Shown: piece by piece, positions 55,307 through 59,494 of the stretch | Position numbering within the stretch: the first letter of the stretch is position 1 | Layout: each line of letters begins with the position of its first letter | Assembly: GCF_001570405.1 (NCBI RefSeq) | Contig: NZ_BBYM01000008.1 | Location: 1 to 64,000, forward strand | Length of the DNA: 64,000 nt | Direction of reading: 5' to 3' | Source of the DNA: Microtetraspora niveoalba | GTDB lineage: Bacteria; Actinomycetota; Actinomycetes; Streptosporangiales; Streptosporangiaceae | The notes under the pieces: generated by a model | The model's input: only the letters and a program-made list of their open reading frames with translations | What the model was told of the DNA's origin: nothing | Database searches by the model: none | Translations under genes and position numbers: made by a program

Positions 55307-56527
55307 TCAGGGAGTGCGCGTCCAGATCCAGCCGGAGCTGTCCTCGTCGTAGTCGGGCCGGCCGCCCACCGCGAACGCCCGATCGCCGCCGGGGACCCGC
55401 GCGAGGGCGTCCACATAGACGCTTCCGGCGGATTCCGACGGGGTGCCCTCGTCCGTCCAGCCGCCGTCGCGCTTGTAGTGGAGGATCGACGCCCGCCCGC
55501 CAGCGGCCAGGAAACCGCCCCGCCCGTCACCGGTGACGGCGCTGAACGTGCCCGCGACGGGCCTGTCCGGGTGGTCCGGGTGGGCGGGGACGTCCGGCGC
55601 GGTCCAGCGTTCGCCGTCGAAGCGCAGCACCACGGCCTCCTCACGGTCCCCGATCCGCAGCGTCCCCACCGCCCAGACCTCCTCCGGGGACACCGCGTCC
55701 ACGTCCCCCAGCGAAAGGGGCGGCGTGCCGTCGCCCGGCCAGGGCGGGCCGGGCACGCCCAGCGAAGGAAACCCCGGGTCGCCCATGGTCAGCGCGGTCC
55801 AGGCGCGGCCGTCCCAGTGCAGGACGGCGGCGCCCCCGACCGCCCACACGTCGTCCGGCGAGGCCGCGCTGATCGCGCTGATCCCGGAGACACCCGCGGG
55901 CACCTCGGTCTCCGACCACCGCCCGCCCGACCATCTCGCGGCGTACGCGCGGCGCGGTTCGGAGGTCGTGGAGCCCGCCACCCACACCTCGCCCGGCCCC
56001 GCCGCCGTGGCCGAGCCGAGCCAGTGCCGACCGCCCGGCCCGCCCATGCTCGTCCAGCCGGAGCCGTTCCACCGCCAGGCGCGGGTCGTGTAGTCGAACA
56101 CCCACACCTCGCCGGGGGACGCGGCGGCGACCGCGTTGAAGGACTCGGCGTCGTCCGGCGCCCGCACCTCGCGCCACCGGTCGCCGTTCCACCGCATGAC
56201 TATGGGGTCCCCCTCGTTGCGGGAGCCGACCGCCCAGGCGTCCCGCGCCGTGGTCGCCACGACGTCGGCCAGGGAGCCGCCCCAGCCGCTGTCGCCGACC
56301 GTCGTGCTCCATGGGGGGCCCACGGCGGTCGCGGTCGGCCGTGCCCGGACCGGCGTCGCGCTCGGGGTGCCGTGAGCCGGGGCGGTTCCGGCGCGTGCCG
56401 AGGCGCCCGGCGTACCCGTCGGCCCGCCCGCGTGCGGCCCCGTGGGCTCCGTCCGGAGTGGGGCGCATCCCGCCAGCGCCAGGGCGATCGCCGCGGTGGC
56501 CGTCGGCAGGGAGAGCCGTCTCAGCAT
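55307..56527 (-). CDS. Beta-propeller-like lipoprotein
   Basis: A 406-residue exported protein with a lipobox LAGC (Cys21), a Pro/Thr/Gly/Ala linker (about 25-70), and then about seven repeats of a blade-like unit: ATTARDAWAVGS, AASPGEVWVF, AAGPGEVWVAGS, AASPDDVWAVGG, AVSPEEVWAVG, each followed by LxWxGxxW. This fits Kelch or photosystem-stability-type propellers that bind partners at the cell surface. No enzyme motif is visible. The start is ATG 56527. It follows the sigma-like fusion gene on the same strand by 51 bp, so the two are probably co-transcribed. Confidence 0.75.
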   Translation of the reverse strand: MLRRLSLPTATAAIALALAGCAPLRTEPTGPHAGGPTGTPGASARAGTAPAHGTPSATPVRARPTATAVGPPWSTTVGDSGWGGSLADVVATTARDAWAVGSRNEGDPIVMRWNGDRWREVRAPDDAESFNAVAAASPGEVWVFDYTTRAWRWNGSGWTSMGGPGGRHWLGSATAAGPGEVWVAGSTTSEPRRAYAARWSGGRWSETEVPAGVSGISAISAASPDDVWAVGGAAVLHWDGRAWTALTMGDPGFPSLGVPGPPWPGDGTPPLSLGDVDAVSPEEVWAVGTLRIGDREEAVVLRFDGERWTAPDVPAHPDHPDRPVAGTFSAVTGDGRGGFLAAGGRASILHYKRDGGWTDEGTPSESAGSVYVDALARVPGGDRAFAVGGRPDYDEDSSGWIWTRTP

Positions 56528-56578: not shown

Positions 56579-58621
56579 CTAGTCGAGCGCGCCGGGGGTC
56601 CAGGAGTAACGGATGCCGGTTCGCTCGTCGAGCGTGATCTCACGGTGGCGGCACGAGCGCACATCGACCGCACGGGTGGAGGAGAGCCGCGCCCCCTCTC
56701 CGGACGAGGCGCCGACGTCCATGACCACCTCGTGGTCGCTTCCCCAGCCGTGGACGTAGACGATGCCGACGCCCCGGGGGAGGGACGCCGTGCAGCGCTC
56801 CGGGGCCCGGCCCGCGACCGCGTCCACGGTCTCCACCAGTACGGCGGCGGCCTTCCCGGGGCGCTCGATCTCGATGATCACCGCCAGGGTGCGCCCGTCC
56901 GGGGACGAGACGGCGGCCACCGGTCCGTCGGACGCGAGCAGCCGGTCGTCCAGCCGCATCCGGCTCACGATCCGGCCGTTCGGGCGCATCCGCACCAGCT
57001 CCGTGCCCGTGTTCCGGACGTTGCCACTGGTCGTCCCGGTGACCGTGCCGTCGTCCGCGACCGCGAGGACGTGGAGCCTGCGCGGCAACGTCCACTTGCG
57101 CCGGGTGTCGAAGTCGCGCACCCGGGTCGGCGCGGCCCGCCCGCGCGTGCCGAAACCCGCCGCCACCCACCGGCCCGACGGCGACACCGCCAGCGACGTG
57201 TCCTTGGTGAGCCGCTGCCCGACGTCGACGAGGTCGCCGCTCTCCGGCACCGAGTGCCGCCGATCGATGACGACGAAGTCCGACCAGCTGGAGTTGTAGT
57301 ACGCGATGTGGTTCCCGTCCGGCGTGATCGCGAGCAACCGGTCGCCGCCCGGGCCGCCGGCGCCTCCCGCGTCGAAGATCACGTACTGCTGTCCCTCGAC
57401 GGTGACCACGCGCCACTCGTAGCACGGGCCCTCCTCCGTCGAGCCCTCCGCGCAGCGTGCCCGGTAGGCGTAGCGGATGGGCGCGTCCACGGTGGACGGG
57501 AGCGTGGACGGGCCGCCTCCGGCCGGGTCGTCCTCGGGCGCCGTGCCGTACGGATCCTCTGTGACGCGGTCCGGGAGGCCGCGGCCCGACGCCTCGTCGA
57601 TCGCGCCGACGAGGATGGTCGCCCCGACGACGACGGGCACGATCACGAGGGCGGCCAGCGTCACGCACACACTGGCGATGAGGGCGCCGCGGCTGGAGCG
57701 CCGCCGCCGCGCGATTCCGGCGACCTCGGGGAAGACGTCGCCCACGGGCGGCATCCGCGAGGCGAGGGCGTTCAGCGCCCGGCGGAGCGCGTCGTCGGCG
57801 GTGTCCCGCGTGGTGGGCCCGCCCGCCCAGGGGCGTACCGGCGGCGGTGCGATCCAGACCGGCTCCGGGCTCCACGCCTGCTCCGGGCTCCAAGCCTGTT
57901 CCGAGCTCCAGGTGGGCTCGGGGAAGAAGCCGATCCGCTCGGGCTCCGGCGTCGGAGGGGCCCAGGTCGTGGCCCGATCCGTCTCGGGCTCCCCAGGCGG
58001 GTCCGCGGGTGAGGGCGTGGAGGGCTCCGCCGGGTCCGCGCCGGGAGACGACGCGGGGACCTCGGCGAGGTCCGGGACGCGGGCGCGCAACTCCGCGCCC
58101 GCCGCCTTGATCTCGGCCCGCGCCCTGTCGGGCGTGGTACGGCACAGGATCGCCGCGTCGGCCTCCGACATCCCCTCGTGGAACCGCGCGACGAGCAGTG
58201 CGCGGCGCCACGGCGGCAGCGCGGCCAGCGCCTCCCGCAGCGTCGCCGTCCCGGCGTCGACGACCGCCAGGAGGGCGGGGGTCCGGCCCGGCGGCCTTCC
58301 GCCGTCGACGGCGAAGCCCATTTCCTCGGGGCCCCGGCCCGAGGGCCTTCTCCCCCCGCCACTGTTACGGCGCGTGGGACTCTTCCCGCCGTAGCGGGTG
58401 AGGAAGGACGTGAACAGCGCCTGGCGGGCCGAGCCGGCGGGGTCGGCCCAGCGTACGGTGGGCCAGCGGAGCACGATCCTGGTCAGGACGCCGACCACGA
58501 GGGCACGGGCGGCGTCCGGGTCGCCGGTCAACAGGAGGGCCGCACGGGCCAGCGGCTGGGCATGGTCGGCGACGAACGCGTCGAAACCCTGCAGCCTGCC
58601 CAGATCGCCCCTGGCGCTCAT
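56579..58621 (-). CDS. Sigma-70-like protein fused to a membrane helix and extracytoplasmic propeller-like domain
   Basis: A 680-residue fusion. Residues about 10-85 resemble sigma region 2 (FDAFVADHAQPLARAALLLTG), and about 125-185 resemble region 4 (LREALAALPPWRRALLVARF, MSEADAAILCRTTPDRARAEI). A Pro-rich linker to about 305 includes repeats of WSSEQ/WSPEQ/WSPEP. One membrane helix (about 309-340) follows. The C-terminal 330 residues look like beta-propeller repeats (LLAITPDGNHIAYY, LAVSPSGRWVAAG, VLAVADDGT, AVSSPDGRTLAVI). ECF factors with membrane-bound ectodomains are known, but the exact group is not assigned. The start is ATG 58621. Confidence 0.8.
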   Translation of the reverse strand: MSARGDLGRLQGFDAFVADHAQPLARAALLLTGDPDAARALVVGVLTRIVLRWPTVRWADPAGSARQALFTSFLTRYGGKSPTRRNSGGGRRPSGRGPEEMGFAVDGGRPPGRTPALLAVVDAGTATLREALAALPPWRRALLVARFHEGMSEADAAILCRTTPDRARAEIKAAGAELRARVPDLAEVPASSPGADPAEPSTPSPADPPGEPETDRATTWAPPTPEPERIGFFPEPTWSSEQAWSPEQAWSPEPVWIAPPPVRPWAGGPTTRDTADDALRRALNALASRMPPVGDVFPEVAGIARRRRSSRGALIASVCVTLAALVIVPVVVGATILVGAIDEASGRGLPDRVTEDPYGTAPEDDPAGGGPSTLPSTVDAPIRYAYRARCAEGSTEEGPCYEWRVVTVEGQQYVIFDAGGAGGPGGDRLLAITPDGNHIAYYNSSWSDFVVIDRRHSVPESGDLVDVGQRLTKDTSLAVSPSGRWVAAGFGTRGRAAPTRVRDFDTRRKWTLPRRLHVLAVADDGTVTGTTSGNVRNTGTELVRMRPNGRIVSRMRLDDRLLASDGPVAAVSSPDGRTLAVIIEIERPGKAAAVLVETVDAVAGRAPERCTASLPRGVGIVYVHGWGSDHEVVMDVGASSGEGARLSSTRAVDVRSCRHREITLDERTGIRYSWTPGALD

Positions 58622-58789
58622 CGCTGCCCTCCACTGTGCTGGGCGAATAGATGCGGATATTTCGCAATGTGAGACCCGGTACGGCGGCCAGATTAACGGA
58701 GATCCGAACCCCGGACCGGAAGAGCACGTCTATAGGGGTGGCACACATCGCACCTGATCGTTGTGGAACGTTCGAAAGGAGAGACCGCC

Positions 58790-59494
58790 ATGAAGACGTC
58801 GCGCGCCCTGGCCCTCGCCCTCGTGCCGATCGCCGCCACCATCGCCTGCGGGAGCGCGGCGAGCGGCGGCGGCGCCGGGGACACCGTCGCCCAGGTCACC
58901 TCCTCGGGGACCGGAACCGGAACCGGGCGGGAGGGGACGCCCGTCGCCGGGACCTCCACCACCGGGACCTCCACCGGCGGGACCTCCACCGGCGCAGGGG
59001 CCTCCGCCGGCAGCGGGACGCCCGCGGCCAACGGGGTCGCGGCCAAGCCGGGGGAGCCCGCCCCGCCCACCGGCACCAAGCCGATCAAGGTCTCCCGCAA
59101 TCCGGCCAAGCCGCCCAAGGTGACCGGGGTCAGGTTCGCGAAGCACACGGGCTTCGACCGGGTCGTGATCGACCTCTCCGGTCCGATGACCGGCTACTCC
59201 GTCGCCTGGACCGACAAGCTCATCCACGACGCGTCCGGCGACCCCGTCGGCCTCTCCGGCGGGGCGTACCTGCAGGTGCGCATCACCCCGGCGTTCGCGC
59301 ACGACAACGCGGGCGCCTCCACCTGGAAGGGGGCCCGCCAGGTCGCGGCGAACCTGCCGAACGTCCGTCACATCGTGAACAACGGCGACTTCGAGGGCAT
59401 CGTGAGCGTCGGCCTGGTCCTCGCCCGCAAGGCCGGGTTCCGGGTGCTGCCGCAATCGGGACCGTCCCGGATCGTGATCGACGTCGCTCACTGA
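58790..59494 (+). CDS. AMIN-like domain lipoprotein
   Basis: A 234-residue exported protein. The lipobox TIAC puts the modified cysteine at 20, followed by a Gly/Thr/Ser linker (about 22-85) encoded partly by GGGACCTCCACC repeats. The C-terminal 145 residues (VTGVRFAKHTGFDRVVIDLSG, GAYLQVRITPAFAHDN, GLVLARKAGFRVL, SRIVIDVAH) match the actinobacterial AMIN-like domain, thought to bind cell-wall glycans. The ATG at 58790 follows AAAGGAGAG. It is divergent from the sigma-like fusion gene and might be regulated by it, which is inference. Confidence 0.8.
   Translation: MKTSRALALALVPIAATIACGSAASGGGAGDTVAQVTSSGTGTGTGREGTPVAGTSTTGTSTGGTSTGAGASAGSGTPAANGVAAKPGEPAPPTGTKPIKVSRNPAKPPKVTGVRFAKHTGFDRVVIDLSGPMTGYSVAWTDKLIHDASGDPVGLSGGAYLQVRITPAFAHDNAGASTWKGARQVAANLPNVRHIVNNGDFEGIVSVGLVLARKAGFRVLPQSGPSRIVIDVAH

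Follow-up and report, generated by a model that had tools for sequence, protein, structure and literature searches.

A single open reading frame in the actinobacterium Microtetraspora niveoalba raises the question of what a sigma-like domain does when it is built into a membrane protein. The frame lies in a stretch of 64,000 nucleotides (contig NZ_BBYM01000008.1, positions 1 to 64,000; hereafter the window). The first-pass annotation of this DNA suggested a sigma factor held at the membrane and controlled by its own ectodomain, with the caveat that promoter binding may have been lost. We addressed the question through the architecture of the protein, its relatives, the residues kept and lost in its sigma-like part, its probable origin and its predicted structure; for positions 1-51590 of the window the analysis covered base composition.

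Architecture and sigma ancestry

The gene and the parts of its product are as follows.

56579..58621, minus strand: whole gene, 680 aa; sigma-like domain, linker, juxtamembrane helix, membrane helix and beta-propeller
58382..58621, minus strand: sigma2-like helices, residues 1-80, from alignments and the AlphaFold model
58067..58276, minus strand: sigma4-like helices, residues 116-185, with a changed recognition helix and the clade-invariant Glu170, from Pfam, alignments and the model
57806..58066, minus strand: Pro-rich linker, residues 186-272, predicted by AlphaFold to be largely disordered
57695..57802, minus strand: juxtamembrane helices, residues 274-309, which align with the N-terminus of separate partners; candidate cis anti-sigma element
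57587..57694, minus strand: single membrane-spanning helix region, residues 310-345, a hydrophobic span from sequence and model
56582..57493, minus strand: extracytoplasmic beta-propeller, residues 377-680, from the AlphaFold model and Foldseek

The frame is open, third-position GC is of coding type throughout (0.83-0.97), and by eye the ATG is preceded by a GGAGG-type site. In the AlphaFold model the sigma2-like and sigma4-like helices have pLDDT values of mostly 87-97 in 10-residue blocks, followed by a linker below 50 at residues 194-207 and 209-270, a juxtamembrane helix (274-287), a helix that contains the membrane span (297-344) and an all-beta domain (382-676). A Foldseek comparison of the ectodomain with the PDB gave TolB as the top match (E 3.7e-8), with many further propellers listed. 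Thus, the layout proposed in the first-pass annotation (sigma-like helices, Pro-rich linker, one membrane helix and propeller-like ectodomain) is borne out by AlphaFold and Foldseek. The same genome also encodes a membrane propeller paralogue (L198:1654-2931), in a reading frame without a sigma-like part.

Residues 11-182 match the NCBIfam model of SigE-family sigma factors, TIGR02983, with an E value of 5.8e-13 and 49 bits against a cut-off of 141.55. Pfam Sigma70_r4_2 matches the protein at E 0.001, under the family cut-off. No match to Sigma70_r2 was found in the protein up to E 1, and over the whole genome none of the 76 places that match this model at E <=0.001 falls on the frame. The sigma homology of the frame is real, and the ancestry suggested earlier is recovered by profile search, though far under the family cut-off of TIGR02983.

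Distribution, locus and neighbours

A scan of the genome collection returned 75 loci, and at 19 of these a single reading frame carries sigma-like, membrane and ectodomain parts; because the scan used an alignment of fused proteins together with two patterns drawn from the N-terminal region, the set is biased toward the fused clade. Recurrence at 19/75 loci indicates that the arrangement is more than chance. The fused genes occur in Microtetraspora, Planotetraspora, Microbispora, Streptosporangium pseudovulgare and Nonomuraea (with the [Actinomadura] parvosata locus counted under Nonomuraea), and by tree labels all 19 loci belong to the Streptosporangiaceae. Among 150 genomes sampled from this family, 16 have a strong match (E <1e-59) that spans the greater part of the protein, in a single piece or in two. 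No full-length match at E 1e-6 was found in 31 genomes outside the family (80 relatives sampled); spread outside the family is judged from these 31 genomes and the pattern scan of the genome collection.

In a quick tree of 93 sigma domains, the 22 fused rows form one clade (SH-aLRT 100) on long branches, which make a single origin less certain. For their sigma parts, the joined frames L050, L052 and L061 were labelled separate in this tree, as were L096 and L136, both without an ectodomain match.

By gene order the locus is also conserved. As in the window, an MFS transporter gene and adenosine deaminase bracket the gene at 18 of the 19 fused loci. Twenty further adenosine-deaminase stretches from other genera hold the fused gene in only one case (G093, taken as the same genome as L068), and 18 are without a fused or sigma gene by the models used, some of them ending at a contig end. 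In G085 the same syntenic spot is occupied by an intact-motif SigE-family sigma overlapped by a membrane partner (L182:2102-3957), and the ectodomain of this partner does not match the ectodomain model of the fused proteins.

Two lipoprotein genes flank the fused gene.

55307..56527, minus strand: propeller-like lipoprotein (PF12768, E 0.0032, below cut-off; lipobox by eye); non-conserved neighbour
58763..59494, plus strand: divergent AMIN-like lipoprotein (PF24837, E 1.4e-36; lipobox by eye); conserved neighbour

Both are of the kinds first described, the propeller-like one on a weak PF12768 match, and their candidacy as partners fared less well. At E 1e-8, the loci of the 19 fused relatives contain no match to the propeller lipoprotein, and in G003 a 71%-identical copy lies about 300 kb away from the fused gene of that genome; these results rule the lipoprotein out as a conserved partner. 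The AMIN-like lipoprotein adjoins the fused gene at 17/19 loci, and it is also present at 12 of the 18 loci without a fused or sigma gene (some cut by a contig end). It thus goes with the locus and not with the fused gene, which weakens the case for a specific partner.

Loss of polymerase-contact and promoter-contact residues

We compared alignment columns between 21 fused and 65 separate sequences, a count that includes L096 and L136 among the separate ones and omits 7 of the 93 sigma rows (L050, L052, L061, L123_3117, L114, L128 and the very divergent fused L058). The Gln of region 2.2 is present in 0/21 fused and 65/65 separate sequences, the first acidic position in 0/21 and 57/65, and the second (Asp) in 3/21 and 60/65. 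This acidic pair and the Gln we take to be core-contact residues. In region 2.4, the Trp is found in none of the fused sequences and in 62/65 of the separate ones, and the Arg after it in 2/21 versus 65/65. In the alignments, the window protein itself has neither the Gln and acidic residues of region 2.2 nor the Trp-Arg cluster of region 2.4. The recognition helix of region 4.2 has changed as well: its Val is kept in 0/21 fused versus 64/65 separate sequences, its basic (Lys/Arg) position in 6/21 versus 65/65 and its Ser/Thr position in 3/21 versus 64/65, and its mean net charge is -0.48 versus +3.69. The region 2.2 helix is described as carrying the main core contact (PMC4598750).

In the same alignment, the fold residues of the sigma-like part are kept across the fused clade, and new residues have become fixed. 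Glu170 and Ala145 are each present in 21/21 fused and 0/65 separate sequences, and His148 in 19/21 and 0/65. Profile searches agree with the column counts. At E 0.01, Sigma70_r2 matches 0/20 fused members and 20/20 separate sigmas, where the fused set is the window protein and the 19 loci, without L049 and L058, and the separate set was chosen by hand among 61 separate sigmas. TIGR02983 still matches 20/20 of the fused members at E <=0.01.

By sequence comparison, then, the fused proteins have lost core, -10 and -35 contact residues yet kept the fold, which points to a sigma mimic. The gene product appears to have lost its DNA-reading parts and probably acts by binding other proteins, not by switching genes. 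The degenerate regions 2.2, 2.4 and 4.2 throughout the clade support the earlier caveat that promoter binding may be lost and, together with the Sigma70_r2 result, disfavour the suggestion of a working sigma held at the membrane.

If the protein were such a sigma, regulated proteolysis would free residues 1-185 for transcription from unusual promoters, the mode of action expected of ECF52 and ECF53 proteins. Its layout does match that of tethered ECF sigmas as described in PMC8999054, and the TIGR02983 matches across the fused members fit as well. An ECF-like promoter pattern, GGATC-N17-CGTA, lies upstream of the fused gene (window 58680-58705, minus strand), with GGAAC-N17-CGTA at the equivalent place in M. 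fusca by eye, but 5 matches across the 64 kb window make this pattern a weak lead. Against a working sigma, the region 2.2 Gln, the Trp-Arg cluster and the recognition-helix residues are gone clade-wide and Sigma70_r2 is matched by none of the fused members. We consider this alternative quite improbable, and these two results rule it out as the main reading.

Origin from a sigma/partner gene pair

In the relatives recovered, a separate SigE-family sigma gene is usually followed directly by a gene whose product begins with a short cytosolic stretch ahead of a membrane helix. For 61 separate sigma reading frames (many from one genus, Nocardioides, and L096 and L136 included), the next frame is longer than 90 aa in 59 cases, and 53 of those encode an N-terminal membrane helix. 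Sigma and partner overlap by 4 bp in 49 of these 53 pairs (49/61 overall). The same arrangement was found for 11 of 903 other mechanical reading frames on the same loci, a loose control since many of these are not genes. The window genome has 64 TIGR02983 matches, of which we examined 12 (10 above the cut-off and 2 below). A membrane partner adjoins 11 of these 12 sigmas, with a 4-bp overlap in 9 of the 11.

In six pairs (L051, L053, L054, L059, L060 and L062) the partner ectodomain is homologous to that of the window protein (E 1e-10 to 2e-5), and sigma and partner overlap by 4 bp in 6/6. Two further pairs, L088 and L102, likewise match the ectodomain model, and their partners begin with residues that align to the juxtamembrane segment of the fused proteins. 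These overlapping pairs, homologous ectodomains and aligned partner N-termini indicate, at the level of sequence, that the window gene is a SigE-family sigma and its membrane partner joined in one chain. The actinobacterial pairs of SigE-family (TIGR02983) sigma and overlapping membrane partner are homologous to the fused protein in both halves, and they are likely the ancestral state. They differ from it in consisting of two genes with the sigma motifs intact, whereas the fused protein is one gene in which the motifs are lost.

Other joined frames occur in the collection. L061:4733-6352 encodes, in one frame, an intact-motif sigma, a membrane helix and an ectodomain that by eye resembles a periplasmic solute-binding protein. 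In L096:4962-6761, from a Nocardioides metagenome-assembled genome, an intact-motif sigma leads straight into a membrane helix and another domain, with no juxtamembrane helix. In L050:4771-6321, which encodes a homologous propeller protein, sigma region 4 continues directly into the membrane helix, as though by deletion, and the region 2 sigma motifs are retained. Judging from the motifs of L096 and L061, and of L050 in region 2, joining does not always bring loss of sigma motifs.

Predicted docking in cis

The juxtamembrane helices correspond to the cytosolic part of the separate partners, and AlphaFold predictions suggest where they may go in the fused chain. With the sigma-like part present, the blocks at 281-310 are predicted at pLDDT 91-95, and with residues 1-264 removed the blocks at 285-314 reach 64-69, in two runs that rest on differing alignments (30 and 22 rows). 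The first juxtamembrane helix falls little (82 for block 271-280 with the sigma-like part, 81 for 275-284 without), and the mean pLDDT of the ectodomain is about 86 and 84 in the two runs. The drop at about 285-310 on removal of the sigma-like part is the basis for predicting docking in cis, in which the juxtamembrane helices may dock on the sigma-like part like a class II anti-sigma factor. In CnrY, two helices are described as wrapping CnrH (PMC7406223). The account of CnrY there matches the fused protein in having a short cytosolic helix pair beside the membrane. The two differ in that the partner of the fused protein's helices would sit in the same chain, and the likeness is drawn from the published description of CnrY.

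Evolutionary constraint

We estimated omega for seven pairs of fused genes by the NG86 method, which gives rough values in such GC-rich genomes. The sigma4-like part has values of 0.30-0.57 in 7/7 pairs and the sigma2-like part 0.31-0.74 in 6/7 pairs, the remaining pair giving 2.1 on a synonymous distance of only 0.047. The ectodomain has values of 0.28-0.77, compared with 0.36-0.74 for the AMIN-like neighbour and 0.06-0.19 for adenosine deaminase. The fused protein is under constraint, but this is weak. For the juxtamembrane and membrane segment, omega is 0.44-2.5 and at least 0.9 in 4/7 pairs, values that show no strong constraint on this segment.

Could the sigma part simply have been eroding since the fusion, in a gene with no present role? 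Identity at the fused loci is 27-59% for the fused protein, with local identity to relatives down to 27%, against 42-96% for the neighbours, and omega is higher than that of adenosine deaminase, both as decay would predict. Yet the frame is open at 19 loci in several genera, omega of the sigma part is below 0.75 in 13 of the 14 region-pair values and similar to that of the AMIN-like neighbour, and the clade has invariant residues of its own. The kept fold residues, the new clade-fixed residues and the omega of the sigma part argue for more than mere decay, which we regard as very improbable.

The strongest rival to the reading that we prefer is a scaffold. Here the sigma-like domain would be permanently clasped and would only anchor or stabilise a receptor, and the outside propeller would do the work, for example by binding a wall component or another ligand. 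The predicted cis docking and the lost sigma residues would suit such a protein, as would the fast evolution of the chain, seen in the omega of the ectodomain, and the AMIN-like lipoprotein as a conserved neighbour. The AMIN-like domain type is wall-related. On the other side, the clade-wide new Glu170 and Ala145 and the omega of the sigma4 part in seven pairs suggest more than an inert remnant. On balance a scaffold seems somewhat unlikely.

A proposed partner switch

The reading that we prefer, at a probability of about 45%, is a membrane-anchored sigma mimic that arose from a joined SigE-family pair, is clasped in cis and works as a partner switch driven by the propeller. On this reading the protein descends from a SigE-family sigma joined to its membrane partner, which brought a short pair of cytosolic helices, a single membrane helix and a propeller on the outside. 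The juxtamembrane helices would dock in cis on the sigma-like part, as in a class II (CnrY- or NepR-like) anti-sigma factor, until a signal read by the propeller opens the clasp. The freed anti-sigma-like helices could then bind a genuine SigE-family sigma, or the mimic, once released, could capture the anti-sigma helices of another sigma/partner pair. While the clasp is predicted from the model, we infer the switch and its targets; candidates for the latter exist in the window genome, where nearly all of the examined sigmas have a membrane partner beside them. Put as a transmembrane mimic whose propeller decides whether the dead sigma and its tethered helices stay bound together or instead seize members of the cell's other SigE-family sigma/partner pairs, the proposal is unlikely.

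Comparison with known systems

Sigma mimicry is known from PhyR, which is not membrane-bound. In PhyR, from the alphaproteobacterial general stress response, the core-binding and promoter-binding regions are reported to have degenerated, and the protein titrates an anti-sigma factor (PMC8103513). These accounts make PhyR a precedent for a sigma domain that is dead yet still has a function (PMC8103513, PMC4598750), and like the fused protein it keeps an ECF fold in which the core and promoter regions have degenerated. As a response regulator PhyR carries a receiver domain, whereas the fused protein has a membrane helix, an outside propeller and SigE-family descent, and no receiver family was found among the Pfam matches of the window protein up to E 1. 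The PhyR_sigma2 model matched 2/20 fused members and 8/20 separate sigmas. PhyR models thus fit the fused proteins no better than separate sigmas, and on these profile matches we claim no kinship to PhyR itself.

Among actinobacterial proteins, ECF52 and ECF53 (SCO4117) are similar in that an ECF domain, a membrane helix, a Pro-rich stretch and an outside domain lie in one chain. The sigma factors of ECF48, ECF52 and ECF53 are reported to carry membrane extensions at the C-terminus, and proteolysis is expected to activate them (PMC8999054). SCO4117, a reported activator, is described with a zinc finger, a membrane region, a Pro-rich stretch and a carbohydrate-binding module (PMC5826349). By that description its Pro-rich stretch follows the membrane helix, whereas that of the fused protein precedes it. 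Unlike SCO4117, the window protein has no zinc-finger family among its Pfam matches up to E 1, and its sigma regions 2 and 4, unlike those of ECF52 and ECF53, do not appear intact. IutY (ECF243) is described as a sigma fused to a membrane anti-sigma that becomes active after proteolysis (PMC8999054). On that account it resembles the fused protein in combining a sigma with a membrane anti-sigma-like part in a single chain; once cleaved, IutY is active, whereas sigma activity of the fused protein is unlikely.

The clade may already carry a group number in the ECF classification; the fused protein was not described in the titles and abstract starts among the matches listed in an open-literature search. 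A clade of sigmas that lost their contacts with polymerase and promoter after fusion to the membrane partner would be a third outcome, beside mimicry as in PhyR and release of tethered ECF sigmas. If this is true, the fused protein would offer a natural cis complex for solving how SigE-family sigmas bind their membrane partners.
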